A stretch of 34,513 bases of DNA from Litorilinea aerophila (GTDB lineage: Bacteria > Chloroflexota > Anaerolineae > Caldilineales > Caldilineaceae): NCBI GenBank assembly GCA_945897075.1, contig CAMDEX010000034.1, forward strand, positions 1 through 34,513. Reading direction: 5' to 3'. Positions within the stretch are counted from its first letter, which is position 1. Each line of letters starts with the position of its first letter. Below the pieces are notes generated by a model. It was not told the origin of the DNA. It did no database searches and saw only the letters and a program-made list of their open reading frames with translations. Made by a program: the position numbers and the translations under genes. This document shows positions 2,904 through 13,829 of this stretch, piece by piece.

Positions 2904-3737
2904 ATGGGCATTCTCAGCGCAGAAGATCGAGCTTTTTGGGAAGAGCAGGGCTATATCGTCGTTCCCAACGCAGTGCCGCAGGAGAATCTCGACCGGGTGA
3001 TCGACGCCCTGTGGGAGTTCCTGGCGATGGATCGCAACAACCCGCAGGAGTGGTACAGCCGCCCGGATTGGCATCGCCCAACCGGAATGGTGGAGCTTTA
3101 CCACCACCAGGCCCTGTGGGACAACCGCCAGCACCCCCGCATCCACCAGATTTTCGCCGAACTCTTTGGCGACGAGAAGCTGTGGGTCAGTTTGGACCGG
3201 GTGAATATGAACCCGCCCGCCCGCCCTGATTGGGACTATCACGGCTTTATCCACTGGGATTTCGACCCGACCACCTGGCCGATTGGTCTGCGCGTGCAGG
3301 GGGTGTTGAATCTGACCGACACGGACGAAGCCCAGGGCGGTTTTCAGTGTGTGCCCGCTTCACACCGCCAGGTGGCGGAGATTGTGGCTCGCCAGAAAGA
3401 GGGCGCTAACCTGCGCAGCCCGGACATCAGCGGTCTGACCGTCAAACCCATTCCAGCCAAAGCAGGCGATCTGGTCATCTGGCATACGGGTCTGCTCCAC
3501 GGCAACGGGCGCAACCGCACGGATCGCCCGCGGCTGGCCCAGTACATCACAATGTATCCTGCCCAGCCAGAGAACGAGGAAGCCCGGCGTCAACGCATCG
3601 AACAGTGGCAGCAACGCCGCCCGCCCGCCAACAGCCGTGCCTTTCCCGGCGACCCGCGCAAGCTGGAAGAGTTACACGGCCAACCCGCACAGCTAACCGA
3701 TCTGGGCAAAAAGTTGCTTGGATTGGAGCTTTGGTAA
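2904..3737 (+). CDS. Phytanoyl-CoA dioxygenase (PhyH) family protein
   Basis: Fe(II)/2-oxoglutarate-dependent oxygenase of 277 residues. The iron-binding triad is visible: H117-x-D119 in FIHWDFD and a distal H199 in LLHGNGRN, followed by an arginine in DRPRLAQY that would bind the 2-oxoglutarate carboxylate. Such enzymes hydroxylate small molecules; the substrate is unknown. An ATG 6 nt upstream (2898) lies only 1-2 nt after AAAGGA, so the second ATG, with about 7 nt spacing, is the better start. It is followed 18 nt later by a flavin oxidoreductase gene, probably co-transcribed. The 184 nt before it contain no gene, only TCTGCG-type short repeats. Confidence 0.93.
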   Translation: MGILSAEDRAFWEEQGYIVVPNAVPQENLDRVIDALWEFLAMDRNNPQEWYSRPDWHRPTGMVELYHHQALWDNRQHPRIHQIFAELFGDEKLWVSLDRVNMNPPARPDWDYHGFIHWDFDPTTWPIGLRVQGVLNLTDTDEAQGGFQCVPASHRQVAEIVARQKEGANLRSPDISGLTVKPIPAKAGDLVIWHTGLLHGNGRNRTDRPRLAQYITMYPAQPENEEARRQRIEQWQQRRPPANSRAFPGDPRKLEELHGQPAQLTDLGKKLLGLELW

Positions 3738-3755
3738 TACAAAAGGAGACGCGCA

Positions 3756-4688
3756 ATGTCAACCGTCCAATTCGGCCTGCGTGTGCCCGCCTTCCCGGTA
3801 GACGGCAGCCGGGGGCACAACTTCACCGCGCAGATCGAGGCCGCTTTGACCGCGGCGTCGGGCAAATTTCACTCGGCCTGGGTGGCCGATCACTTCATCC
3901 CCTGGGCGGGCTGGCAGGCCGCCGAGACCGACACGCTGGAATGTCTGGCCTCCATCTGCTATCTGGCCGGGAAGTTTCCCCTGCTTCACTTTGGCACAAT
4001 CGTCCTCTGCCAGTCCTACCGCAATCCGGCCCTGCTGGCCAAGATGGGGGCTACCCTGCAACTGCTCAGCGGCGGGCGCTTCATTTTTGGCATCGGCGCG
4101 GGCTGGAAAGCCGACGAATACAAAGCCTACGGCTACGATTTTCCCTCGCCAGCCGTGCGTATCCGTCAGTTGGAAGAGACGGTGGAGATTGTCAAACGGA
4201 TGTGGACGGAGACGCCTGCCAGCTACGCGGGTAAATACTACCGCATAGACAACGCGCTGTGCGAGCCAAAGCCCAACCCGCTCCCGCCCATTTTGATCGG
4301 CGGCGGCGGTGAACAGTTGACCCTGCGTGTGGTGGCGAAGCACGCGGACTGGTGGAACATCCCCGGCGGCGACGCGGCCCGCTATGCGCAGAAGCTGGGC
4401 GTGTTGCGCAGCCACTGCGACGCGGTAGGCCGGGATTTCGACAGCATCCGCAAAACCTGGGCGTGCGAGACAATCTCGGTTGCCCCCACCCGCGCACTGG
4501 CGCAACGCTACGCCGACGCCTCCCCCTTTGCCGTAGGCGGCGGTATCCTGGGCACGCCGGAAGAGGTGGCGGATCAGTTGCGCGCCTTCACCGCCCTCGG
4601 CGTGGACTATTTCATCCTGCGCTTCACCGACTTTCCCAGCACCGACGGCCCATTGCTCTTTGCCGAAGAAGTGATGCCGCTGTTGTAA
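3756..4688 (+). CDS. LLM-class (luciferase-like) flavin-dependent oxidoreductase
   Basis: A 310-residue TIM-barrel enzyme of the bacterial-luciferase/F420-dependent superfamily. Typical segments are present: VADHFIPW near residue 45, a GTIVLCQSYRNPALLAKM strand-helix, LSGGRFIFGIGAGWK around 105-120, RIRQLEETVEIVKRMW, and PPILIGGGG before the last third. The cofactor could be FMN or F420, and sequence alone does not decide. A strong AAAAGGAGA sits 7 nt before the ATG. It lies 18 nt after the PhyH gene, so the two may carry out successive oxidations of one substrate; this is inference. A heptanucleotide array begins immediately after the stop. Confidence 0.92.
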   Translation: MSTVQFGLRVPAFPVDGSRGHNFTAQIEAALTAASGKFHSAWVADHFIPWAGWQAAETDTLECLASICYLAGKFPLLHFGTIVLCQSYRNPALLAKMGATLQLLSGGRFIFGIGAGWKADEYKAYGYDFPSPAVRIRQLEETVEIVKRMWTETPASYAGKYYRIDNALCEPKPNPLPPILIGGGGEQLTLRVVAKHADWWNIPGGDAARYAQKLGVLRSHCDAVGRDFDSIRKTWACETISVAPTRALAQRYADASPFAVGGGILGTPEEVADQLRAFTALGVDYFILRFTDFPSTDGPLLFAEEVMPLL

Positions 4689-4689
4689 G

Positions 4690-4842
4690 GCGAACGGGGA
4701 TTGGCGAACGGGGATCGGCGAACGGGGATCGGCGAACGGGGATCGGTCAGGACGAACCCCAGTCGCCAGTCCCTAATCGCCAGTCTCTAATCCCCAATCC
4801 CCAATCCCCAATCCCCGTTCGCTACTCCCCACCCCCCGCCGC
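4690..4842. repeat. Heptanucleotide repeat array between convergent genes
   Basis: Degenerate 7-bp units. The first half reads GGCGAAC GGGGATC repeatedly. The second half reads CCCCAAT and CGCCAGT units on the same strand. The outer arms, GCGAACGGGGATTGG near 4691 and CCAATCCCCGTTCGC near 4816, are exact reverse complements of 15 bp, so the array can fold into a long hairpin. It begins 1-2 nt after one stop codon, and the stop codon of the opposite-strand hyuB-like gene (4787-4789) lies inside it. Confidence 0.9.
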
Positions 4843-6469
4843 CCGGCGTTTCGATGCGTAGCCGGCTGCCCGCGGCCAGACGGCGGCTGAACTTGCTGGG
4901 CAATTCCTCTTCACGCCCGTCCGGGTGGATGAGCGTATTGCGCCCAGTTGCGCCCGCCCCGCCGCCCGCCAATCCCCAGGGACCGACCACCCGTCGCTCG
5001 CTGAGGACGGTGACAGTCGTCTCCCCCAGCAATTCGTACTCCCGGATCAGCCCGTCGCCGCCCCGGTGTTGACCCGCGCCGCCGCTGCCCCGGCGCAATT
5101 GGTAGCGCAGCAGGCGTAGCGGATAGGCCATTTCCAGCGCTTCGACGGGTGTGTTCAGTGTGTTGGACATGTGGACGTGCGCACCGCTCAGCCCGTCGCC
5201 CGCGGGGTGCGCGCCCATCCCGCCGCCCAGCGTCTCGTAGTAGGCCCAGGGCGAACCGTCGGCCCGTTTGCCCCCCATTGTGCAATTGTTCATTGTGCCC
5301 TGGCCGGCCGCGGCCACCCGATCCGGCAGAGCCTGGGCCAGCGCGCCCAGCACCACATCCGTCACCCGCTGGGAGGTCTCCACATTGCCCCCGGCCACGG
5401 CGGAGGGCGGCTGGGCGTTGACCAGACAGCCAGGGGGAGCAGAGACTGTTACCGGCGCAAAACAGCCCGAATTGACGGGAATTTCACCGGCCAGCGCCCG
5501 CACGACGTAATAGCAGGCGGATTGGGTCACGGCCAGGGGCGCGTTGAGGGACGATTGGATGGCGTCCGCCGTGCCCGCAAAGTCAAAGTTAATCGTCTCG
5601 CCCGCAATCGTCGCCGTTACCCGAATCGGCGTCAGCGTCACCCCTTGCGGCTGGACAAACTCGATCACATCCTCGAAGGTGTACGCGCCGTCGGGCCAGC
5701 CCCGGATGGCAGCGCGGGTCAGCCGTTCGCTGTAGGCCAGCAGATGATCGGCGTAGGCATTCACCTCCTCCGTGCCGAAACGTTCCACCAACTCCAGCAG
5801 ACGCGTTTCGCCCACCGCGTGCGCGGCCCGTTGCGCGGCCAGATCGCCGCGTCGCTCGTCTGGTGTGCGCACATTGCGCAGGATCAGCGCCAACACCCCC
5901 TCCACAAGCTGCCCGGCCGCGTATACTTTCACGGGCGGGATGATAATCCCCTCCTGATAAATTTCTGTGGAAAGGGGCAAAGAACCGGGGGACATACCAC
6001 CCACATCGGCGTGGTGGGCGCGGCTGGCGATGAAGAAGGAAGGGGGCTGGGGATTAGAGACAAGGGATCGGGGATCGGGGATCGGGGATCGCGCCCCAGT
6101 CTCCAATCCCCAATCCCCAGTCTCCAATCCCCAATCCCCGATAAACACCGGCGAAATCATCGTAATGTCGGGCAAATGTGAGCCGCCGGCATAGGGGTCG
6201 TTGAGGAGAACCAGATCGCCCGCGGCCCAGTGCGGGAAGGCGGCGAGGGCGGCGGCCACGCTGGCGGGCATCGCGCCCAGGTGGACGGGGATGTGCGCGG
6301 CCTGGGCCACCATCCGCCCCTCCCCGTCAAAGAGCGCGCAGGAATAGTCAAGCCGCTCTTTGATATTGGGCGAGTAGCTGGTGCGGCGCAGAGTCACGCC
6401 CATCTCCTCGGCAATCCCGGCGAAGCGATGGCGGTAGAGTTCGAGGGTGATGGGGTCTGGTCTGGTCAT
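4787..6469 (-). CDS. Hydantoinase B/oxoprolinase family protein
   Basis: A 560-residue HyuB-type subunit. Together with HyuA it catalyses ATP-dependent hydrolysis of 5-oxoproline or hydantoin-like rings. Conserved blocks are [20 protein letters not shown] (~40-59), [19 protein letters not shown] (91-109), AHHADVGG (151-158) and a glycine-rich C-terminus. The start at 6469 is chosen because AAAGGTG lies about 8 nt upstream and [15 protein letters not shown] is the usual family N-terminus; the frame is open for 18 more codons of repeat DNA. Two oddities are seen. Residues ~110-143 are a repeat-encoded insertion (GDWGLET repeated) exactly between two conserved blocks, and the last ~11 residues plus the stop codon are encoded by another array. 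The enzyme may tolerate these as loops. Confidence 0.9.
6045..6152. repeat. Heptanucleotide array read in frame inside the hyuB-like gene
   Basis: Runs of GGGGATC units followed by inverted CCCCAAT/CCAGTCT units, about 105 bp, wholly within coding sequence. Because 7 and 3 share no factor, the array is read through three frames and gives a 7-residue peptide period ([14 protein letters not shown]). The reading frame is preserved on both sides. Confidence 0.9.
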
Positions 6470-6487
6470 TGATAAACACCTTTCTTT

Positions 6488-6562
6488 CTGACGGCAGACG
6501 ACGGACCGCGGACCGCGCAGCATCTGTCAAACAGTAGACCGCAGACAGCAGACGGCGGACCA
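6488..6562. repeat. Heptamer-type AGACGGC/GGACCGC repeats upstream of the hyuB-like gene
   Basis: Degenerate units such as ACGGCAGACG, GGACCGCGGACCGC, AGACAGCAGACGGCGGACC. They are the same sequence class as the array at 7073-7203 on the other side of the four-helix-bundle gene. The positions suggest that this gene and its flanking repeats entered a once continuous hyuA-hyuB operon. Confidence 0.75.
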
Positions 6563-6623
6563 TTGGTATCGTCTCTGGTACGTCAATTGGCGACTGCATC
6601 TGTTGCGGTCTACTGTCAACAGA

Positions 6624-7038
6624 TTAAAAGGGAATGCCCGTATCCGCCTGATACTCTTCAGATTCGTCGCGTAGGGTTTCTGAGCGTAGGGAGCGACGAA
6701 AGGATTGTAGCTTTGCGAATAAAGTTTGGCTGGCTCGATAGGCGGTGCGTAGCTGCTCAATATCCTTCAAGTAGCCGCGACGGTGAATAATGTGAAGGCA
6801 GGCAACCGTTTCTACAAGCGAACGAATCGCTATACCCAAAAATCGTGACTGCTCCGCGTCACTTTGGCCGGTCGAACCCTCTGCGATATTCAGGGAGATA
6901 CTGGTAGCGGCGCGTACGATCTGACTTTTCAAGTTGTACTCTTCCGATCTGGGAAGTTCACTTGCGATCGCATAAATAGAGGTCAAGATAGTCCAGCGCC
7001 AGTTTCCACACATCCAACTGCTCAAATTTGTACGCCAT
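6624..7038 (-). pseudogene. Four-helix-bundle protein (S23/IVP family), frameshifted
   Basis: Two frames must be joined to give the protein. It starts at ATG 7038 (MAYKFEQLDVWKLALDYLDL, with AAAGGAG 6 nt upstream) and then continues, after one extra base near 6976-6982, as IYAIASELPRSEEYNLKSQI and IVRAATSISLNIAEGS to the stop at 6624. The joined ~138 residues match the whole length of the TIGR02436-type family: 'LDVWK.a..L...iY', 'LP..E.y.L.sQi.RAa.SI..NIAEG' and 'fl.iA..Sl.E'. Members were first found in 23S rRNA intervening sequences, and the Avd accessory proteins of diversity-generating retroelements share the fold. It sits between hyuA and hyuB, flanked by heptamer arrays. The extra base may be a genuine mutation or an assembly error. 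Confidence 0.8.
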
Positions 7039-7072
7039 ACCCATCTCCTTTGGAATATGCCTCAATTTGCTG

Positions 7073-7203
7073 TAGACGGCAGACGGTAGACCGTAGACGG
7101 TAGACCGCGGTCCGCCGTCTGCCGTCTGCGGTCCGCCGTCCGCCGTCTGCCGTCTGCCGTCCGCGGTCCGCGGTCCACCGTCCGCCGTCCGCCGTCCGCC
7201 GTC
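7073..7203. repeat. Heptanucleotide array (AGACGGC/CGTCCGC class)
   Basis: About 18 consecutive degenerate 7-bp units: AGACGGC, AGACGGT, AGACCGT, then GGTCCGC, CGTCTGC, CGTCCGC. The first part is roughly the inverse of the second, giving fold-back potential. It ends on the stop codon of hyuA (7202-7204), so it fills the 3' flank of that gene. Confidence 0.92.
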
Positions 7204-9298
7204 ATCTCTCCACCCACAAATTGCCCCAGCCGTCCATCCTGGCACCCCAGCCAGGCGGGATGACTGTCGTCGTGTCGAATTGGTAGACGACGGCGGGGCC
7301 GGGAAAACGGTTGCCGGGGGCGAGACGGCTGCGGTCATACGTTGCAGTGGCGGTGGGCGCGTCGGCCTGAAACCAGACGAGTTTTTCGCCCAGAAAGGCC
7401 GGGGAAGCATCCGCCACGCCCAGTGGCCGCCGCTGGACTTCCGGCTGCGCGCCCGGCGCACTGCCGCGCAGCCGCAAAGTGACCACTTCCACCGGCTCGT
7501 CGCGGCGGGCATAGCCGTAGCGCTGCTCGTGTAAAATGTGGAACCCGGCCACGGCTTCCGCCAGCCCGACATGGCTGACGGGCGTCGCCAGGGGGACGGT
7601 GAGTTCGTAGCTCTGTCCCCGGTAGCGCAGATCCAGCGCGGCGTCCAGCCGGGGATCGGCCACCCCTTCCCCAGCCAGCACAGCCCGGCTCTCCGCGGCC
7701 AGCCGGGCAAAGTGGCCGGCGAGGAAGCCGATCTCCGCCTGTAGCGCCCCAGCCTCGCGCAAAATGGCCTGGGCGTTTTCGTGTACCACATCGGCCATCA
7801 GCAGCCCCAGCGCGCTGAGTACGCCGGGGCTGGGTGGGATGAGGATGCGCTGCACGCCCAACGCCGCGGCCAGATCGCAGGCGTGCAGAGGCCCCGCGCC
7901 GCCAAAGGGGACGAGTACGAAGCCGCGCGGGTCGTGCCCCCGTTCCACCGAGACCCGGCGCAGCGCGCGTTCCATTGTGGCGTTGGCAATGCGGATGACG
8001 CCCAAAGCGGCTGCCTGCGCTGAATAACCGCCCAACGCTTCGCCCAGGCGGGTGAGCGCGCCCAGCGCGGCCTCTGCATCCAGCGCCACCGCACCCGTGC
8101 CGCCCAGAAAGTTGCCGCCGTCCAGCCGCCCCAACACCAGATTGGCGTCGGTGACAGTCGGTTGCACGCCGCCCCGTCCGTAGCAGACCGGGCCAGGCAG
8201 CGCGCCCGCGCTCTGCGGGCCGACACGCATCCCGCCCCCCGCATCCACAAAGGCCAGACTGCCGCCCCCCGCGCCCACAGTGTGGATGTCAATGACGGGC
8301 AGACGCAGGGGCAGCCCGGCAATTTCACTCTCCCCGCTGCGCGGAATCTGGCCGGGGCAGAGCGCCACATCGGTGCTGGTGCCGCCCATATCGAAGCTGA
8401 TGATGGCGGGCCGTTCGCTTTCCAGCGCCTGGGCTGCCACGGCGAATGCGCCAACAACCCCGCCCGCTGGCCCGCTGAGGACGAGGCGCGCCGGTTCCGC
8501 GCTGGCCTGTTCAACCCCAATCGCGCCGCCGTTGGATTGCATCACCCGCACGGGTACGCCGTCCAGGGCTGCGGAAAGACGGCGCAAATAGCGGTCAGCC
8601 AGGGGTTGCAGATAGGCGTTGATGACTGTCGTGGCCGTGCGCTCGTACTCCCGGTATTCGGGCAGGAGGTGGCTGCTGATAGAAAGGAGGGCGTCGGGCA
8701 GGTAGCGGCGCAGAATGGCCGCGGCCTGTTCTTCGTGGGCCGGGTTGCGGTAGGAGAAGAGGAAGACGACGGCGACGCTCTCCGGCTGGGTCGCGGCCAT
8801 CTGGCGGGCTACTGCTTCGAGCGCGGCTTCGTCCAGGCGCGTGAGGATATTGCCGTCTACGTCCAGCCGCTCCACCGCCTCGAAACGCAACTCAGCCGGC
8901 ACCAGTTGGGGCGGGCGCTGCTGGTGCAGGGCGTAGAGATGGGGGCGGTTCTGGCGGCCAATTTCGATCACATCGGCAAAGCCGGCGCTGGTGAGGAGAG
9001 CGGTGGCCGCCCCTTTGCGTTCGAGGAGAGCATTGGTGGCGGCGGTAGTGCCGTGGACAACCAGACCCCCAGCCCAAGCACCCCCACCCCCACTGTGGGG
9101 GAGGGGGGAAGGGGCTTTTGCAAGTTCAGGGAAGTTCAAAAGTTCTGACAGTCCGGTCACAATGCCCCGGCTCTGGTCGTCCGGCGTGGTGGGGGATTTG
9201 TGGATGCGTATCTGCCCGTTTTCCAGCAGGACAAAATCGGTGAATGTGCCGCCGACGTCAATGCCGATCAGTTTCACAAGTTGTTGATCCCTACGCAT
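7202..9298 (-). CDS. Hydantoinase A/oxoprolinase family protein
   Basis: A 698-residue HyuA-type ATP-binding subunit that partners HyuB in ring hydrolysis of 5-oxoproline, hydantoin or a related compound. Motifs are IGIDVGGTFTDFVLLENG (11-28, phosphate loop of the actin/Hsp70-like fold), VHGTTAATNALLERKGA (81-97), ISFDMGGTSTDVALCPG and a C-terminal PFGGAGPLHACDLA. Start: ATG 9298 has AGGA about 9 nt upstream. A GTG at 9277, with AGGGA 10 nt upstream, is an equally plausible start close to the conserved core. Residues ~61-78 (APSPLPHSGGGG...) are a low-complexity insertion encoded by a palindromic CCCCCAC/GTGGGGG run resembling the dispersed repeat at 10651 and 11383. hyuB lies downstream but is separated by a repeat-flanked gene. 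Confidence 0.92.
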   Translation of the reverse strand: MRRDQQLVKLIGIDVGGTFTDFVLLENGQIRIHKSPTTPDDQSRGIVTGLSELLNFPELAKAPSPLPHSGGGGAWAGGLVVHGTTAATNALLERKGAATALLTSAGFADVIEIGRQNRPHLYALHQQRPPQLVPAELRFEAVERLDVDGNILTRLDEAALEAVARQMAATQPESVAVVFLFSYRNPAHEEQAAAILRRYLPDALLSISSHLLPEYREYERTATTVINAYLQPLADRYLRRLSAALDGVPVRVMQSNGGAIGVEQASAEPARLVLSGPAGGVVGAFAVAAQALESERPAIISFDMGGTSTDVALCPGQIPRSGESEIAGLPLRLPVIDIHTVGAGGGSLAFVDAGGGMRVGPQSAGALPGPVCYGRGGVQPTVTDANLVLGRLDGGNFLGGTGAVALDAEAALGALTRLGEALGGYSAQAAALGVIRIANATMERALRRVSVERGHDPRGFVLVPFGGAGPLHACDLAAALGVQRILIPPSPGVLSALGLLMADVVHENAQAILREAGALQAEIGFLAGHFARLAAESRAVLAGEGVADPRLDAALDLRYRGQSYELTVPLATPVSHVGLAEAVAGFHILHEQRYGYARRDEPVEVVTLRLRGSAPGAQPEVQRRPLGVADASPAFLGEKLVWFQADAPTATATYDRSRLAPGNRFPGPAVVYQFDTTTVIPPGWGARMDGWGNLWVER

Positions 9299-9311
9299 TT
9301 TGGTTATTCCT

Positions 9312-9378
9312 GGTAACTACCTGGCCAGGCTGGCGACTCCCCGGCACTTTTTATCCAAACGGGTCAAAGGTAGTTACC
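9312..9378. repeat. Inverted repeat element with 10-bp arms between SRPBCC and hyuA genes
   Basis: GGTAACTACC (9312-9321) and GGTAGTTACC (9369-9378) are exact reverse complements separated by 47 bp. The right arm contains the stop codon of the SRPBCC gene (9374-9376). There is no T-run, so it is not a canonical intrinsic terminator. It may be a small mobile palindromic element or a regulatory site. Confidence 0.7.
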
Positions 9379-9856
9379 CCGCTTTGACCAGGGCGACAAG
9401 CTGGTCGAGACATTTCCCCCAACCGGCATGAAAGCCCATCTCCTCGTGGGTCTTGCGTCCTGCCTCGTCTCTGTGCATGGCCCGCGCCGTGTATTTCGTA
9501 CCGCTGCCGTGGGCCGCAAAGGTGATGACCGCTGTGAAAAATCCGTTCTCTACAGGCCGAAAGCCGGGACCCAGCGCGTCGGTGAAAACGATCTTTTCGT
9601 TCTCGATCAGCTCCAGATAACAGCCCATGTTGGGAAACTCCTCTCCCTCCGGGGAACGCATGACAGTGCGGCACATCCCACCCGGACGCAGATCGAGTTC
9701 ACACTCCGAGACAGTCCAGGGCGCAGGCGCGAACCATTTTTTGAGATGTTCGGGCTGGGTCCACGCCGCCCAGACCAGTTCACGGGGAACATCAATCACG
9801 CGTTCCAGGACGAGATCGGTTTGGGGGTTGAATTGGTCGTACTCTGCTCGGTTCAT
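9374..9856 (-). CDS. SRPBCC/AHSA1-type (START-like) domain protein
   Basis: A 160-residue protein of the Bet v1-like SRPBCC superfamily, AHSA1 branch. The family N-terminus [35 protein letters not shown] and the C-terminal [18 protein letters not shown] are clear. The fold makes a deep hydrophobic pocket; the ligand is unknown. Its ATG overlaps the stop of the upstream ArsR gene (ATGA, 9853-9856), so translation is coupled. ArsR-SRPBCC pairs of this kind are common and usually behave as a small autoregulated operon. Confidence 0.93.
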
Positions 9857-10197
9857 TCTTCTCTCTCCTTGTTGCTCAGGTTGATTAAATAATCGTCAAG
9901 CTGGTCGAGGCGTCGCTCCCACAGCGTGCGTTGCTCCGCCAGCCAGCGTTCCGTCATCGCCAGCGCCTGGGGTTCGATCTGGCAGGTGCGCACCCGCCCC
10001 ACTTTGTGGGAACGCAGCAGGCCGCTCTCTTCCAGCACTTTCAGATGTTGCAGGAAGGAGGGCAGCGCCATCGCAAAAGGCCGCGCCAATTCGCCTACCG
10101 ACGCCGGCCCAGTCGAGAGGCGTTCCATCACCGAGCGCCGGGTGGGGTCGGCCAGGGCGTGAAAAATTTTGTCCAGAGGGTGCGCTTGGTTAGGCAT
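9853..10197 (-). CDS. ArsR-family winged-helix transcriptional regulator
   Basis: A 114-residue regulator with the ArsR HTH pattern: [40 protein letters not shown] (recognition helix) and [20 protein letters not shown] (wing). The metal-binding ELCVCDL-type cysteines are absent, as in the SdpR/AHSA1-linked subgroup, so the signal is probably not a metal. The start at 10197 lies right behind a consensus promoter with essentially no leader and no Shine-Dalgarno. It is translationally coupled to the SRPBCC gene and is likely to repress its own promoter. Confidence 0.94.
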
Positions 10198-10204
10198 GTG
10201 GCTA

Positions 10205-10233
10205 ACTATAGCACAAGGAAATAGCTATGTCAA
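10205..10233 (-). promoter_or_regulatory. Consensus sigma-70 promoter, predicted leaderless, for the ArsR operon
   Basis: Read on the minus strand: TTGACA (10228-10233), a 17-nt spacer, TATAGT (10205-10210). The start point falls at about 10198, one base before the ATG at 10197. The spacer region contains the palindrome ATAGCTAT, and the -10 overlaps CTATAG; both are candidate operator halves for the ArsR protein. Confidence 0.85.
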
Positions 10234-10328
10234 TACCTAACTGTTGCGGGTTGCGGATTACGAGTTATGAGTTGCGGGCAAATAGTGCCATTTTAGTCCA
10301 AAAAGAGCCACCCCCGGCGCATGACGCT

Positions 10329-10397
10329 GGGGGTGGAAGGTGGAAGGTGGAAGGTGGAAGGTGGAAGGTGGCAGGTGGAAGGTGGAAAGTGGGAACG
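10329..10397. repeat. Heptanucleotide array (GGTGGAA class)
   Basis: About nine units of GGTGGAA with variants GGTGGCA and AGTGGGA, uninterrupted and in intergenic DNA. This class reappears at 12340-12400 (in coding DNA), 13782-13829, 15244-15305 and 17416-17510. Confidence 0.92.
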
Positions 10398-10510
10398 GCA
10401 GGGAGGAGTAGAGAAACGACTTAAGCGGGAGTAAGCTCGGCCAGTGTATTCATCTCTGGTATCCGAAAGGCTAGGACGATTTGATTGCGGAGTATGCCGG
10501 CGTCAAGTGG

Positions 10511-10563
10511 CTCGTTCCCATCGCTCCCGCGTGGGAACGGCTGTGCGACGCTCTGCGTCAGGG
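10511..10563. repeat. 53-bp dispersed repeat, copy 1
   Basis: Starts CTCGTTCCCA and ends CTGCGTCAGGG. The reverse complement of 13712-13764 matches at 51 of 53 positions. It contains the palindromes GACGCTCTGCGTC-like and TTCCCA...TGGGAA. The two copies are inverted relative to each other and enclose the toxin-antitoxin and CHAT-FGE genes. Confidence 0.9.
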
Positions 10564-10588
10564 TTGCCGGTCGGTGGGGCGACAGTCT

Positions 10589-10633
10589 GGACGCTGAGCG
10601 TCCGGGGAAGTGCCCACGCAGGAGCGTGGGCAC
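10589..10633. repeat. Two adjacent perfect hairpins
   Basis: GGACGCTGAGCGTCC (10589-10603) is an exact odd palindrome. GTGCCCACGC-AGGA-GCGTGGGCAC (10610-10633) is a 10-bp stem with a 4-nt loop. They look like REP-type extragenic palindromes. No T-run follows. Confidence 0.8.
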
Positions 10634-10650
10634 GAGAGAACCCCACCCAC

Positions 10651-10697
10651 CCGCCAATCAGTCCCTCCCCCGCTGCGGGGGAGGTTAGGTGGGGGTT
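10651..10697. repeat. 47-bp direct repeat, copy A (CCCTCCCCCGC palindrome class)
   Basis: Begins CCGCCAATCA and contains CTCCCCCGC-TGCGGGGGAG and then GTTAGGTGGGGG. It matches 11383-11429 at 46 of 47 positions in the same orientation. The copies lie on either side of the RelE-type toxin-antitoxin pair. Confidence 0.9.
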
Positions 10698-10704
10698 TTG
10701 TAGT

Positions 10705-10986
10705 TCAATTCAATCCCAACCGCTTCTTTACATCGGCCAGCGGGATTCGTTTTCCATTGGAGCGCCGCTCGGCCAGAAAGCGCAGCAATACCTGATTTTC
10801 CCCGGTGACCTGTACTTCCTGGGCAAAGTCGTCGCTGTCGCCGACGGGAAAGCCGGTCCAGCCATCGAGAGACATCAGGACAAACTGTTGCCCATCAGCG
10901 GTCTGTAGAATCAAATCGTCCTGACGCACATCGTTAAGCAGGTCAAACAGAAACTTTTCTTGTGTTGGTACTGTAATAACTCTCAT
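10705..10986 (-). CDS. Antitoxin-like protein of a RelE/ParE-type module
   Basis: A 93-residue acidic protein. Residues 8-45 (EKFLFDLLNDVRQDDLILQT, then ADGQQFVLMSLDGW) resemble Phd/YefM-like or related small antitoxins that carry 'dd.ilr..dG..fvl...d'. The C-terminal half (ENQVLLRFLAERRSNGKRIP, then LADVKKRLGL) would be the toxin-wrapping tail. It has no helix-turn-helix, so autoregulation is uncertain. Its ATG overlaps the toxin stop (ATGA, 10983-10986), so the toxin comes first and the antitoxin second, the reverse of most RelBE operons. It is named by context and pattern only. Confidence 0.8.
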   Translation of the reverse strand: MRVITVPTQEKFLFDLLNDVRQDDLILQTADGQQFVLMSLDGWTGFPVGDSDDFAQEVQVTGENQVLLRFLAERRSNGKRIPLADVKKRLGLN

Positions 10987-11276
10987 AGATCCCTCCGTTT
11001 GCCACGCACGTACAACTGGTTGCCAATCTTAAGCCCGATGACCTCAATGCTGACAATCTGTACTGTTGTCTCGACGTTATAGAAGACCCGATACCTCTCG
11101 ATACGCAGTTCCCATTCGGCCACATCATTGGGACGCATCCGAAAACGATTGTGTGTCTCCATCATCGGCTCATACGTGAGTTGGGCTTCGATACTTGCGA
11201 CGATTTTCTGTTGCTCGAATTTTCGGAATGCTTCCAAGTCATCGAGCGCTTCTGAAGAGAATTCGATCTCGTACAT
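10983..11276 (-). CDS. RelE/ParE-family toxin-like protein
   Basis: A 97-residue protein with the RelE-like fold pattern: MYEIEFSSEALDDLEAFRKF (strand then helix), SIEAQLTYEP, RFRMRPNDVAEWELRIERYR and VFYNVE with a final strand VQIVSIEVIGLK. The R..YR.fY core is typical of the family. RelE members cleave mRNA in the ribosome and ParE members poison gyrase; which applies is not decided here. It is the first gene of a two-gene module, behind an extended -10 promoter. Confidence 0.9.
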   Translation of the reverse strand: MYEIEFSSEALDDLEAFRKFEQQKIVASIEAQLTYEPMMETHNRFRMRPNDVAEWELRIERYRVFYNVETTVQIVSIEVIGLKIGNQLYVRGKRRDL

Positions 11277-11317
11277 TGTTTTCCCGTGTATCTGTGAAGA
11301 TGAATTCTTCTATCAAG

Positions 11318-11326
11318 AGTATAGCA
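11318..11326 (-). promoter_or_regulatory. Extended -10 promoter for the toxin-antitoxin operon
   Basis: Minus-strand TGC-TATACT: the -10 is at 11318-11323 and the TG extension at 11325-11326. No good -35 is found 17 nt upstream. The leader to the ATG at 11276 would be about 35 nt, with a weak GGGA before the start. Confidence 0.6.
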
Positions 11327-11382
11327 CAAAATTCAGGCGACGCTCTTTCGCCAAATTATACGGTACACCCAACAAACTCAGC

Positions 11383-11429
11383 CCGCCAATCAATCCCTCC
11401 CCCGCTGCGGGGGAGGTTAGGTGGGGGTT
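11383..11429. repeat. 47-bp direct repeat, copy B
   Basis: The same sequence as 10651-10697 with one mismatch (A for G at position 11), in the same orientation. Recombination between the copies would remove the toxin-antitoxin genes. Confidence 0.9.
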
Positions 11430-11463
11430 CTTCAAAAAATTGATCGCCTGACGGCGATACACG

Positions 11464-11515
11464 CTGGGGGCTATGCCCCCAGACCCCCGCCCGGTGCTGC
11501 TGCGCAGCAGCCGGG
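11464..11515. other. Two strong GC-rich hairpins downstream of the CHAT-FGE gene
   Basis: CTGGGGGC-TAT-GCCCCCAG (11464-11482) is an 8-bp stem with a 3-nt loop. GCTGCTGCGCAGCAGC (11496-11511) is a perfect 16-bp palindrome with further CCGG flanks. They lie 60-110 bp beyond the stop codon of the CHAT-FGE gene. Hairpins just past the variable repeat are a known cis requirement of several diversity-generating retroelements. They could equally be transcription-ending or REP-like structures; no T-run is present. Confidence 0.7.
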
Positions 11516-11571
11516 CAAAGCACAGAGTGCCATCGTTTTTCAGAGTCCAGAGAAGACCAGAGTCCATCGGT

Positions 11572-13548
11572 TCAACTGCCGGGGGAAAGGAGGCGAAACC
11601 CGAGGTCCCTGACCCTGTAGTCAGGGTTGTACCTGTACCGATAGGCGCAACGCACGTTGTTACGGTAGTAGGGGAACGACCCCCCACGCAACACACGACG
11701 GTCATTCTCCTTACGGTTCAAATTTTCTCTCCAGTCCTCCAGTTTATACGGATAACTCCCCCAAGCACTTCGCGTCCATTCCCATACATTCCCCGCCATA
11801 TCCAACACCCCGTATGGACTGGCCCCCGCGGGATACGCGCCGACCGGCGTCGTGTCGCCCACATTGTTGTCGAAATTGCAATGGCTCTTGTCCGGCGGCT
11901 GGTTGCCCCAGGGCCAGATGCGCCCATCCGTTCCCCGCGCCGCCTTCTCCCATTCAGCCTCGCTGGGCAGTTGAGCGCCTGCCCAAGCGCAGAAGGCGAT
12001 GGCATCGTGCCAGGAGACATTGACAACCGGATGCTCTTGCTTGCCGTCAGGAATCCGCCCGCCTTTCCAGTGTTCAGGAGTCTTGTACTTCGTGGCCTGC
12101 ACAAAGCGTAAATATTGGGCGTTCGTCACCGGCACGCGGGCAATCCGATATTCCGGCAGATAGAGCGTGTGCTGCGGCATTTCGTCGTCGGAAGCCATCG
12201 AATCCTTTTTCTTATCACTGCCCATCGTAAACTCCCCGGCGGGGATCGTCACCCAATCGAAATCAATAGGAGATTTGCGAACGGGGACTGGAGATTGGGG
12301 TGTGGGAGCTACAGCAGGCGTTTTTACCGGCGCAGTCGCTTCTCCACCTGCCACCTGCGACCTGCCACCTGCCGCCTTTGCCTTTTGCTGTTCTTCCTCT
12401 TCTCTGCGCCTTTGCGCCTCTGCAGGAGAACTCTCCCACTCAAATAGCCGTCCATCCGTGGCCCGCATATACAGCACCGGCGTGCCCCACTCTACCGAAT
12501 TGGGACGGGCGAAACTGAGAGATCGTCGGGCTTCGGTCACGGCAGCGTCCACCGGTAAGCCGTCGGCCAGGGCTTCGTAGAAGGAGCGGCTGAATTCCAG
12601 CGCGGCTGCGTCGCTGATCTCGTATTGCATCGCCAGCACCGCGGGCACGCTGCGCCGGGCCAGGGCAGCGGCCGTGCTGGAGAAGATGTCTAGCTGCCCC
12701 GCCTTTGCGCCGTCGCAGGCATTGAGCAGGGCCAGACGCAGGGATTGCTTATCCAACAGCCGGGCCAACTGACCGGCGTAGATACGCTCGGCCTCGCCCC
12801 GTTCGTCGGCAAAAGCCAAAAAGCCCTCGTCCCGGCTTTTATCAAATCCGCCGTGGCCGATAAAATGGAAGATATGCCAGTCGGAACGGCGCATCTCCCG
12901 CTGCAAAACGCGCCAGCTTCCCCCGTCCAGCCAGGTCAGTTCCAACAATCCCTGTGCTTGCAGAACAGCGAGCGCCTGCTCCAACTGCTTCTGCTCCGTC
13001 GCCACGTCCAGCGCTTCGTAGCTGCGCGGACTGGCCACCATCCCCAGAATGCGCAGGGGCGGCGTCACCATCAACGGTCGGAGCGGCTGGGCCACGGGCA
13101 GATAGCGCACCAGCGGGGTGTCGCTGGCCAGGCAGAGGTAATCGTCGTTGCGCGGGTCGTGCAGGAATTCCCAGGGCAACGCGGCCAGTTCCGCCGCGTC
13201 CATACGCAGTTTCAGGCGCAGACCGTGCCCGCCGCGTTCGGCTTCGCGCCGGCTCTCGTAGAAGAGGGCGCGCACCTCCCCGACCAGCAGAAAGTCGAAG
13301 AAGGCGCTACCCAACGCCTTGACCGACGTTTCTTCTTTCGTCAACGCTTTGCGCCGGGGTCCACCACTGGAACGGAGCAGGGCGATCTCCAAATCCTTCA
13401 GCCGGAGTTCCAATTGGGATTCACTGAACGGAAAAGCGACCGACTCTTTCGCCACACCCATTGGCGAACGCACGACCGTCACTGTATAGCCATAACCGTT
13501 GAGAACTGACTCAATGCTCAGTTCGAAGTCAAGATAGTCGTGCGCCAT
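11572..13548 (-). CDS. CHAT protease domain fused to FGE-sulfatase (C-type-lectin-like) domain
   Basis: A 658-residue fusion. Residues ~1-365 form a CHAT (caspase-HetF-associated) peptidase: LAALPWEFLHDP, TPLVRYLPVAQPL, then the catalytic His H232 (FHFIGHGGF) and Cys C278 (LALLNACDGA). Residues ~370-428 are a charged, repeat-encoded linker. Residues ~430-658 are a formylglycine-generating-enzyme-like domain: DWVTIPAGEFTMGSD, PVTNAQYLRFV, HPVVNVSWHDAIAFCAWAG, LPSEAEWEKAARG, GVLDMAGNVWEWT, RRVLRGGSF, GFRL. In such proteins this domain is usually a C-type-lectin-fold binder, not an enzyme. The start at 13548 (MAHDYLDFEL) has GGAAGG 6 nt upstream; the frame is open further into a repeat. The last ~30 residues resemble a DGR variable region. 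A sensor-protease role in biological conflict or signalling is inference. Confidence 0.93.
   Translation of the reverse strand: MAHDYLDFELSIESVLNGYGYTVTVVRSPMGVAKESVAFPFSESQLELRLKDLEIALLRSSGGPRRKALTKEETSVKALGSAFFDFLLVGEVRALFYESRREAERGGHGLRLKLRMDAAELAALPWEFLHDPRNDDYLCLASDTPLVRYLPVAQPLRPLMVTPPLRILGMVASPRSYEALDVATEQKQLEQALAVLQAQGLLELTWLDGGSWRVLQREMRRSDWHIFHFIGHGGFDKSRDEGFLAFADERGEAERIYAGQLARLLDKQSLRLALLNACDGAKAGQLDIFSSTAAALARRSVPAVLAMQYEISDAAALEFSRSFYEALADGLPVDAAVTEARRSLSFARPNSVEWGTPVLYMRATDGRLFEWESSPAEAQRRREEEEQQKAKAAGGRSQVAGGEATAPVKTPAVAPTPQSPVPVRKSPIDFDWVTIPAGEFTMGSDKKKDSMASDDEMPQHTLYLPEYRIARVPVTNAQYLRFVQATKYKTPEHWKGGRIPDGKQEHPVVNVSWHDAIAFCAWAGAQLPSEAEWEKAARGTDGRIWPWGNQPPDKSHCNFDNNVGDTTPVGAYPAGASPYGVLDMAGNVWEWTRSAWGSYPYKLEDWRENLNRKENDRRVLRGGSFPYYRNNVRCAYRYRYNPDYRVRDLGFRLLSPGS
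11593..11676 (-). other. Candidate DGR variable repeat (VR) at the 3' end of the CHAT-FGE gene
   Basis: Within the segment encoding SFPYYRNNVRCAYRYRYNPD and YRVRDLGFR, candidate variable codons are TTC, CCC, TAC, TAC, AAC, AAC, TAC, TAC, AAC, TAC, GTC and GAC. All end in C, with variation at the first two bases, which is what adenine-directed mutagenesis of AAC template codons yields. Invariant residues R, CAYR, NP/D and GFR stay fixed, as at the end of known FGE-type DGR targets. No template repeat or reverse transcriptase is present in this window. Confidence 0.6.
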
Positions 13549-13711: not shown

Positions 13712-13764
13712 CCCTGACGCAGAGCGTCGCAGAGCCGTTCCCACGCGGGAGCGCTGGGAACGAG
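13712..13764. repeat. 53-bp dispersed repeat, copy 2 (inverted relative to 10511)
   Basis: Begins CCCTGACGCAGAGCGTC and ends GGGAACGAG. It is the reverse complement of copy 1 with two mismatches. With copy 1 it bounds a 3.2-kb segment carrying the toxin-antitoxin and CHAT-FGE genes. Confidence 0.9.
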
Positions 13765-13781: not shown

Positions 13782-13829
13782 CTGCCACTTTCCACCTGCA
13801 ACTTTCCACTTTCCACCCGCCACCACCCG
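13782..13829. repeat. Heptanucleotide array (TTTCCAC class) next to a stop codon
   Basis: Units such as CTTTCCA, CCTGCAA, CTTTCCA, CTTTCCA, CCCGCCA. It ends on the stop codon of the SHMT-like gene at 13830. It is the reverse complement class of the GGTGGAA array at 10329. Confidence 0.85.

Follow-up and report, generated by a model that had tools for sequence, protein, structure and literature searches.

Can the end of a protease-linked protein be rewritten by a diversity-generating retroelement (DGR) whose reverse transcriptase (RT) and template lie elsewhere? The question is raised by a gene in the window, by which we mean the whole 34,513-nucleotide stretch of Litorilinea aerophila DNA that was analyzed. 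A sequence-only reading had described this gene as a fusion of a CHAT protease with an FGE domain whose C terminus varies as in DGR targets. It had seen neither an RT nor a template repeat in the window and had thus proposed a remote (trans) target. Our searches agree on both absences, as no RT match and no template-like second copy of the variable repeat (VR) occur in the window.

Architecture and neighborhood of the CHAT-FGE gene

The fusion was borne out by the open reading frame and by Pfam, which recognizes both domains.

11572 to 13548, minus strand: CHAT-FGE fusion gene, 658 amino acids (open reading frame, ATG at 13548)
12517 to 13236, minus strand: CHAT caspase-like domain, residues 105 to 344 (Pfam PF12770, 1e-24)
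11587 to 12258, minus strand: FGE-sulfatase domain of C-type lectin fold, residues 431 to 654 (Pfam, 1.7e-61; predicted structure)

The gene is also open from an alternative GTG start at 13809. Two residues of the CHAT domain, His232 and Cys278, which we take to be the catalytic dyad of a putative protease, are present in 17 of the 18 relatives checked, and the SAVED_CHAT model of PADLOC matches this domain at 3.3e-16. The structural model, which covers the FGE part, has a mean pLDDT of 95 and matches structures of FGE and EgtB; the structure alignment drew on 46 of 52 usable loci (52 tried out of 80 that had been fetched), on four additional targets and on the window protein. Formylglycine-generating enzyme and EgtB share the fold and the family of this domain, but when the window protein is aligned to human FGE (1y1e), the two cysteines that the human enzyme has in this stretch are not paired with a cysteine. 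Those two cysteines are presumably the active-site pair, whose residue numbers appear in structure entry titles. Given their lack of partners, the FGE domain of the window protein, of lectin fold, is probably non-enzymatic.

The best named relative of the protein comes from a Caldilineaceae MAG (43%), and G010, a genome of the same family as that of the window, yields this match as well. The window neighbors submitted to Pfam comprise one ParE-like gene, the others being genes of housekeeping or metabolism (for instance SHMT, a UvrD-like helicase, rpoB and rpoC). Among them, no conflict-system gene adjoining the target was found, which counts against reading the protein as a conflict sensor.

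Adenine-directed variation in four genes

A search of the genome with the end of the window gene returned three more strong VR copies, on contigs C253, C89 and C43. The C89 gene has a NACHT N terminus according to Pfam, and the C253 and C43 genes appear from their sequences to have coil-like and lipoprotein-like N termini, respectively. The template of a congener, genome G006, served as the reference to delimit the variable stretch of the window gene.

11578 to 11700, minus strand: variable repeat, the stretch matching the G006 template (85% over 123 bases; template comparison)
11602 to 11673, minus strand: core of the variable repeat, 24 codons; the template of the congener has adenine in 18 of these (codon comparison)

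The four VRs of this genome vary in 28 out of 123 columns, and 27 of these columns are adenines of the congener template (hypergeometric probability 3.4e-21, calculated with the 31 adenines that the template has in its first 117 columns). The 72-column core alone yields the same 27 of 28 (2.3e-15). The exception, a single T/G column in the C89 VR where the template has no adenine, counts against our best explanation; at every other non-adenine position the four VRs are identical. Changes among the four VRs fall on codon positions 1, 2 and 3 in 16, 11 and 1 cases. In contrast, the 120 codons upstream of the VR are 54 to 71% identical between pairs of the four genes, and change there is rich in third positions. 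The identity of the VRs at non-adenine sites next to such diverged flanks argues that homogenization was recent.

Comparison of the congener template with the window VR over 95 columns revealed differences at 13 of 30 adenines and at 2 of 65 other bases. Over 117 columns, the template departs from the VRs of this genome at four non-adenine positions, all of them common to the four VRs, as would be expected if the genome's own template carries those bases. None of the 18 core codons with adenine can turn into a stop codon, and approximately 5.6e16 proteins are allowed.

The sequence-only reading had relied in part on codons ending in C as the signature of a DGR. Such codons do make up 15 of the 24 in the VR core, compared with 31% of the 625 preceding codons (binomial probability 0.0015). 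A count of 15 is, however, also attained elsewhere in the gene by a stretch of 24 codons. We therefore rejected codon counting as proof of a DGR, since it is weak by itself; the sister copies and the real template are decisive. With these, sequence comparison confirms that the C-terminal end of the window protein is a DGR variable repeat, and the aligned VRs document a recent, adenine-directed replacement of the C terminus in four genes from one template backbone. It is strongly indicated that this backbone served genes on different contigs, those for the protease and for the NACHT, coil-like and lipoprotein-like proteins.

Template, RT and Avd in a congener

A template for the window VR would carry the backbone GTGCGTTGCGCC. 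A template-like probe found a match in 12 of the 41 genomes searched. On contig C40 of G006, an FGE target gene, an RT gene, an Avd gene and a template of AAC-rich codons follow one another in this order on one strand. The RT, of 351 amino acids, has the motifs GLPIGNLTSQ and YVDD and is 35% identical to BPP-1 brt. Its best match among solved structures is 8ub7, deposited as a reverse transcriptase (2.2e-49), which we take to be the BPP-1 DGR enzyme. The Avd scores 104 bits, over the NCBIfam DivGenRetAVD cutoff of 80.

Differences between templates and VRs were strongly adenine biased in all pairs compared. The pairs of G006 C40, G006 C14 and G010 C723 have no difference among 65, 68 and 67 non-adenine positions, respectively, and the two pairs of G002 C57 have three among 66 each. 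The pairs found in relatives beyond the C40 cassette are those of loci L052, L054 and L058 (G006 C14, G002 C57 with two VRs, and G010 C723), all with the adenine bias. The distribution of the RT is patchy, with a match at 1e-30 in 10 of 46 genomes of the family, this one included.

The DGR cassette of the genome and a template missing from the assembly

A remote target implies a DGR RT elsewhere in the genome, and one was indeed found, accompanied by Avd, in an assembly of 6.38 Mb (397 contigs, 95% complete, 8.8% contamination). The RT is split over two contigs. C183 ends inside it, with 58% identity to the congener RT over query residues 9 to 296, and the start of C282 matches query residues 325 to 350, weakly (E 0.011) but directly before Avd. 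C282 thus carries, in order, the RT tail, Avd, which is over the NCBIfam cutoff (83.8 versus 80), and a template, TR1, at 625 to 690. Over 66 bases, TR1 differs from the VRs on C183, C282 and C6 at 10, 12 and 12 of its 20 adenines, respectively, and at none of the 46 other bases. NACHT-FGE proteins were recognized by Pfam on C89 and C282.

The genome thus has a template of its own, but its backbone differs from that of the window VR. TR1 was rejected as the template of the window gene because 10 of 46 non-adenine positions mismatch. No template with the window VR backbone was found in the assembly (397 contigs, 95% complete); the matching copy is the one beside RT and Avd in G006. No second DGR-type RT was found in the assembly, and the genome yielded only one clear Avd, the runner-up having an E of 0.04. 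The window lacks DGR machinery, and three other contigs each carry a VR of this backbone, so that the proposal of a remote (trans) target fits. These data support the view that the window gene is such a target and that its template is missing from a fragmented assembly.

Two other RT-domain genes, L002 and L003 on C28 and C190, encode proteins of 748 and 988 amino acids of another type, which match the DGR RT weakly (6e-9 and 6e-5, respectively). Directly after the DGR cassette on C282, positions 3539 to 7685 of the plus strand (L020) hold a separate CHAT gene, a MoxR-type ATPase gene and a DUF58 gene.

A hairpin block behind the variable repeats

The likeness among the four genes of this genome continues into their 3' flanks, where a block with three hairpins was delineated.

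11434 to 11571, minus strand: 3' block also present behind the other three VR genes, whose copies match over 84 to 138 bases (flank alignment)
11489 to 11516, minus strand: GC-rich hairpin 1, 55 bp after the stop codon (folding and conservation)
11464 to 11482, minus strand: hairpin 2 of the block (folding and conservation)
11443 to 11458, minus strand: hairpin 3, terminator-like, with a T run behind it (folding; no excess over shuffles in the terminator scan)

The blocks of the three sister genes are 83 to 91% identical to that of the window. A search of seven genomes of the genus, this one included, identified 11 block matches in six genomes among the candidates scored, which numbered 40 out of 47 in this genome and 40 out of 52, 41 and 42 in G002, G003 and G005, respectively. 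All 11 lie at most approximately 112 bases behind an FGE gene, and four of them are partial (29 to 60 bases). The four VR genes gave the only block matches among the 40 of 47 candidates scored in this genome, and a 789-kb control from it contained no match below E 0.27. Covariation in the hairpins is slight, with a double change in 2 of 41 pairs and an unfavorable covariation term, so that folding and conservation are what supports the structure of the block. Two sites were returned by the terminator scan versus 2.5 expected from shuffles, i.e., no excess. We infer that the block probably acts in cis and singles out a gene as a DGR target.

Target and non-target homologues

The G006 genome also encodes, on C50, a full-length CHAT-FGE homologue with both domains, 54 to 57% identical over its length. 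Judged by sequence, this homologue is a non-target: it differs from the G006 template at 25 of 65 non-adenine positions, and codons ending in C make up only 4 of the 24 in its core. The term homologue refers here to sequence, not to gene position. The block is absent behind the C50 gene, which was for this reason left out of one flank alignment and kept in another. By the same measure, the template differs from the C253, C89 and C43 VRs of L. aerophila at 2, 3 and 2 of 65 positions, from G002 C132 at 4, from G001 C3 at 6 and from G006 C165 at 11. Targets and the non-target thus contrast unusually cleanly, and this contrast represents the most useful part of the analysis.

The G001 C3 gene (L168/L055), a further CHAT-FGE copy, retains the 3' block, but its VR is partly decayed and its frame changes twice, for which sequencing error could also be responsible. 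No RT match was found in G001, which is listed as 100% complete. At L057 (G006 C165, approximately 9187 to 11655, minus strand), a single frame of 850 amino acids encodes a CHAT domain 78% identical to that of the window protein and an FGE domain only 42% identical. This mismatch, as read from the sequences, is a sign of swapping of the sensor half.

Proposed mechanism and alternative explanations

The explanation that best accounts for the data, and that we consider probable, is that the window gene is a remote DGR target, its FGE sensor likely switching the CHAT protease. The DGR RT and Avd would copy an adenine-rich template, making errors at its adenines. The resulting cDNA would take the place of the last part of the FGE domain and so alter as many as 18 residues, according to the codon comparison. 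One template backbone would in this way supply four genes, for a protease, a NACHT, a coil-like and a lipoprotein-like protein, and the hairpin block behind each VR would mark the gene as a target. Judging from the architecture and from published proposals, the ligand of the FGE part most likely changes, and its binding would switch the caspase-like CHAT protease, as in a conflict or cell-death sensor. A bolder version, toward which we lean less than halfway, is that VR and 3' block form a portable tag, one template diversifying any FGE gene that bears it. If so, one shared variable sensor design would stand before several outputs (protease, NACHT switch, surface lipoprotein), and target status would be gained and lost between species.

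The four VRs might instead owe their diversity to a DGR that no longer exists in the genome, template and RT having disappeared, which would leave the gene now fixed. No template of the window backbone was found in the assembly, and loss does occur in the genus, as illustrated by G001, which has no RT match and whose copy shows 6 of 65 non-adenine differences and two frame changes. However, the agreement of the VRs at non-adenine sites, set against 83 to 91% identity of the blocks and 54 to 71% of the upstream coding DNA, speaks for recent homogenization, and in an assembly of 397 contigs even the single RT is cut where a contig stops; we thus regard a fossil target as improbable. Ordinary duplication or gene conversion of the FGE end, without any retroelement, would explain why the likeness extends 84 to 138 bases beyond the stop codon, and copying probably contributed, at one time or another, to the spread of ends and flanks. 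Such copying would place neither 27 of 28 changes on template adenines nor spare third positions (16/11/1), and a real template exists with RT and Avd in a congener. As a full account it is refuted, and we give it next to no credence.

The role of the protein and that of the block are each subject to another reading. The FGE part of a DGR-diversified regulator would bind host or environmental signals, and CHAT would trim housekeeping partners. The housekeeping neighborhood of the window gene is in line with this, and regulatory tuning is argued for in the available text of a cyanobacterial DGR paper (PMC7517822). Nevertheless, the CHAT domain matches SAVED_CHAT of PADLOC, one sister target is a NACHT-FGE, and CHAT and MoxR-type genes adjoin the DGR cassette of this genome, which makes a regulator appear rather unlikely to us. 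As for the block, it might be only a transcription terminator copied along with the VR, with no part in targeting. The terminator-like hairpin 3 with its T run, the slight covariation (2 of 41 pairs with an unfavorable term), and a 55-bp spacing and loops that are unlike those of the phage hairpins of Guo et al. (2011) are compatible with that role. Hairpins 1 and 2 are nonetheless extra to a terminator, all 11 matches in the seven genomes lie behind FGE genes, and the non-target homologue is devoid of the block. A mere terminator is accordingly a serious but somewhat disfavored reading, and a targeting signal is the one that we prefer.

Relation to known systems

The FGE part of the window protein is related by sequence (7.7e-16) to variable protein 1 of Treponema denticola (PDB 2y3c), which, unlike the window protein, has no CHAT fusion. 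We take the Treponema protein to be a DGR target, as supported by a reference title.

According to the accessible sections of Dore et al. (2024, PMC10907252), Thiohalocapsa PB-PSB1 has lectin-fold VRs (CLec, some FGE) behind effector or NTPase domains, its DGR 2 target bears CHAT and TIR, and the VRs of DGR 4 and DGR 5 match the DGR 2 template at all non-adenine sites, i.e., in trans. The multicellular hosts in the RT clades of that paper include filamentous chloroflexi. As in the conflict sensors described there, VR-bearing lectin folds are joined here to an effector or NTPase (CHAT-FGE in the window, NACHT-FGE on C89 and C282). Unlike in those sections, it is the C282 cassette rather than the window target that has CHAT and MoxR-type genes beside it. 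The window CHAT is moreover joined to one FGE domain, with neither TIR nor NTPase, in a host of the Caldilineaceae, and its template is missing from the assembly, whereas read-level diversity is a Thiohalocapsa result.

For cyanobacteria, the parts available of Vallota-Eastman et al. (2020, PMC7517822) describe CLec variable proteins with varied N termini, including CHAT-like and orthocaspase-like ones, and many remote targets, which cis hairpins were suggested to activate. Compared with that set, our case concerns another phylum, and its 3' block is common to unlike targets and absent behind a non-target homologue. CHAT-bearing, remote and trans DGR targets are thus already published for cyanobacteria and Thiohalocapsa in the accessible portions of these papers (PMC7517822, PMC10907252), and the window gene adds a case to a described class.

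According to Guo et al. (2011, PMC3240598), efficient retrohoming in phage BPP-1 requires a hairpin located downstream of the VR, and a reporter can be retargeted with no more than IMH and hairpin. Our system resembles it by its RT, Avd, adenine-directed change and inverted repeat downstream of the VR. The BPP-1 and phage hairpins reported in that text lie 4 to 34 bp from the VR and have 4-nucleotide GRNA loops, whereas hairpin 1 has another loop. Further DGR literature, also available in part, comprises PMC7159879, PMC8195603 and PMC8144416. A literature search that was thin on subscription journals found no publication describing this set of genes, a weak indication of novelty.

The set bears on how genes become remote DGR targets, as four genes of one genome and several congener targets share the VR backbone or the block, and a CHAT-FGE non-target has neither. 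This contrast can be used to test if the block is enough to turn a gene into a target. A variable lectin fused directly to CHAT, with no NTPase between them, provides a simple construct for determining whether DGR-diversified sensors switch effectors.

Other features around the variable genes

A dispersed repeat of approximately 50 bp is present in the window at 13736 to 13762 (minus strand) and 10513 to 10539 (plus strand), in L016 at 235 to 261, and in L017 at 9374 to 9400 and 13097 to 13123. Copies precede three of the four VR genes by 143 to 305 bp and follow two of them. Near-exact copies number five around VR genes and one in the 789-kb control, and more divergent copies occur in five control stretches; the repeat was dropped as the bound of a mobile unit. 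A phage origin was likewise rejected, one VR-backbone pattern having 0 matches in viral_contigs. P0001 matched 518 plasmid records in part, 0 of them covering 80% of it. Just behind the 3' block, at 11022 to 11276 on the minus strand of the window, is the ParE-like toxin gene, after which the sequence seems to hold an antitoxin-like reading frame.
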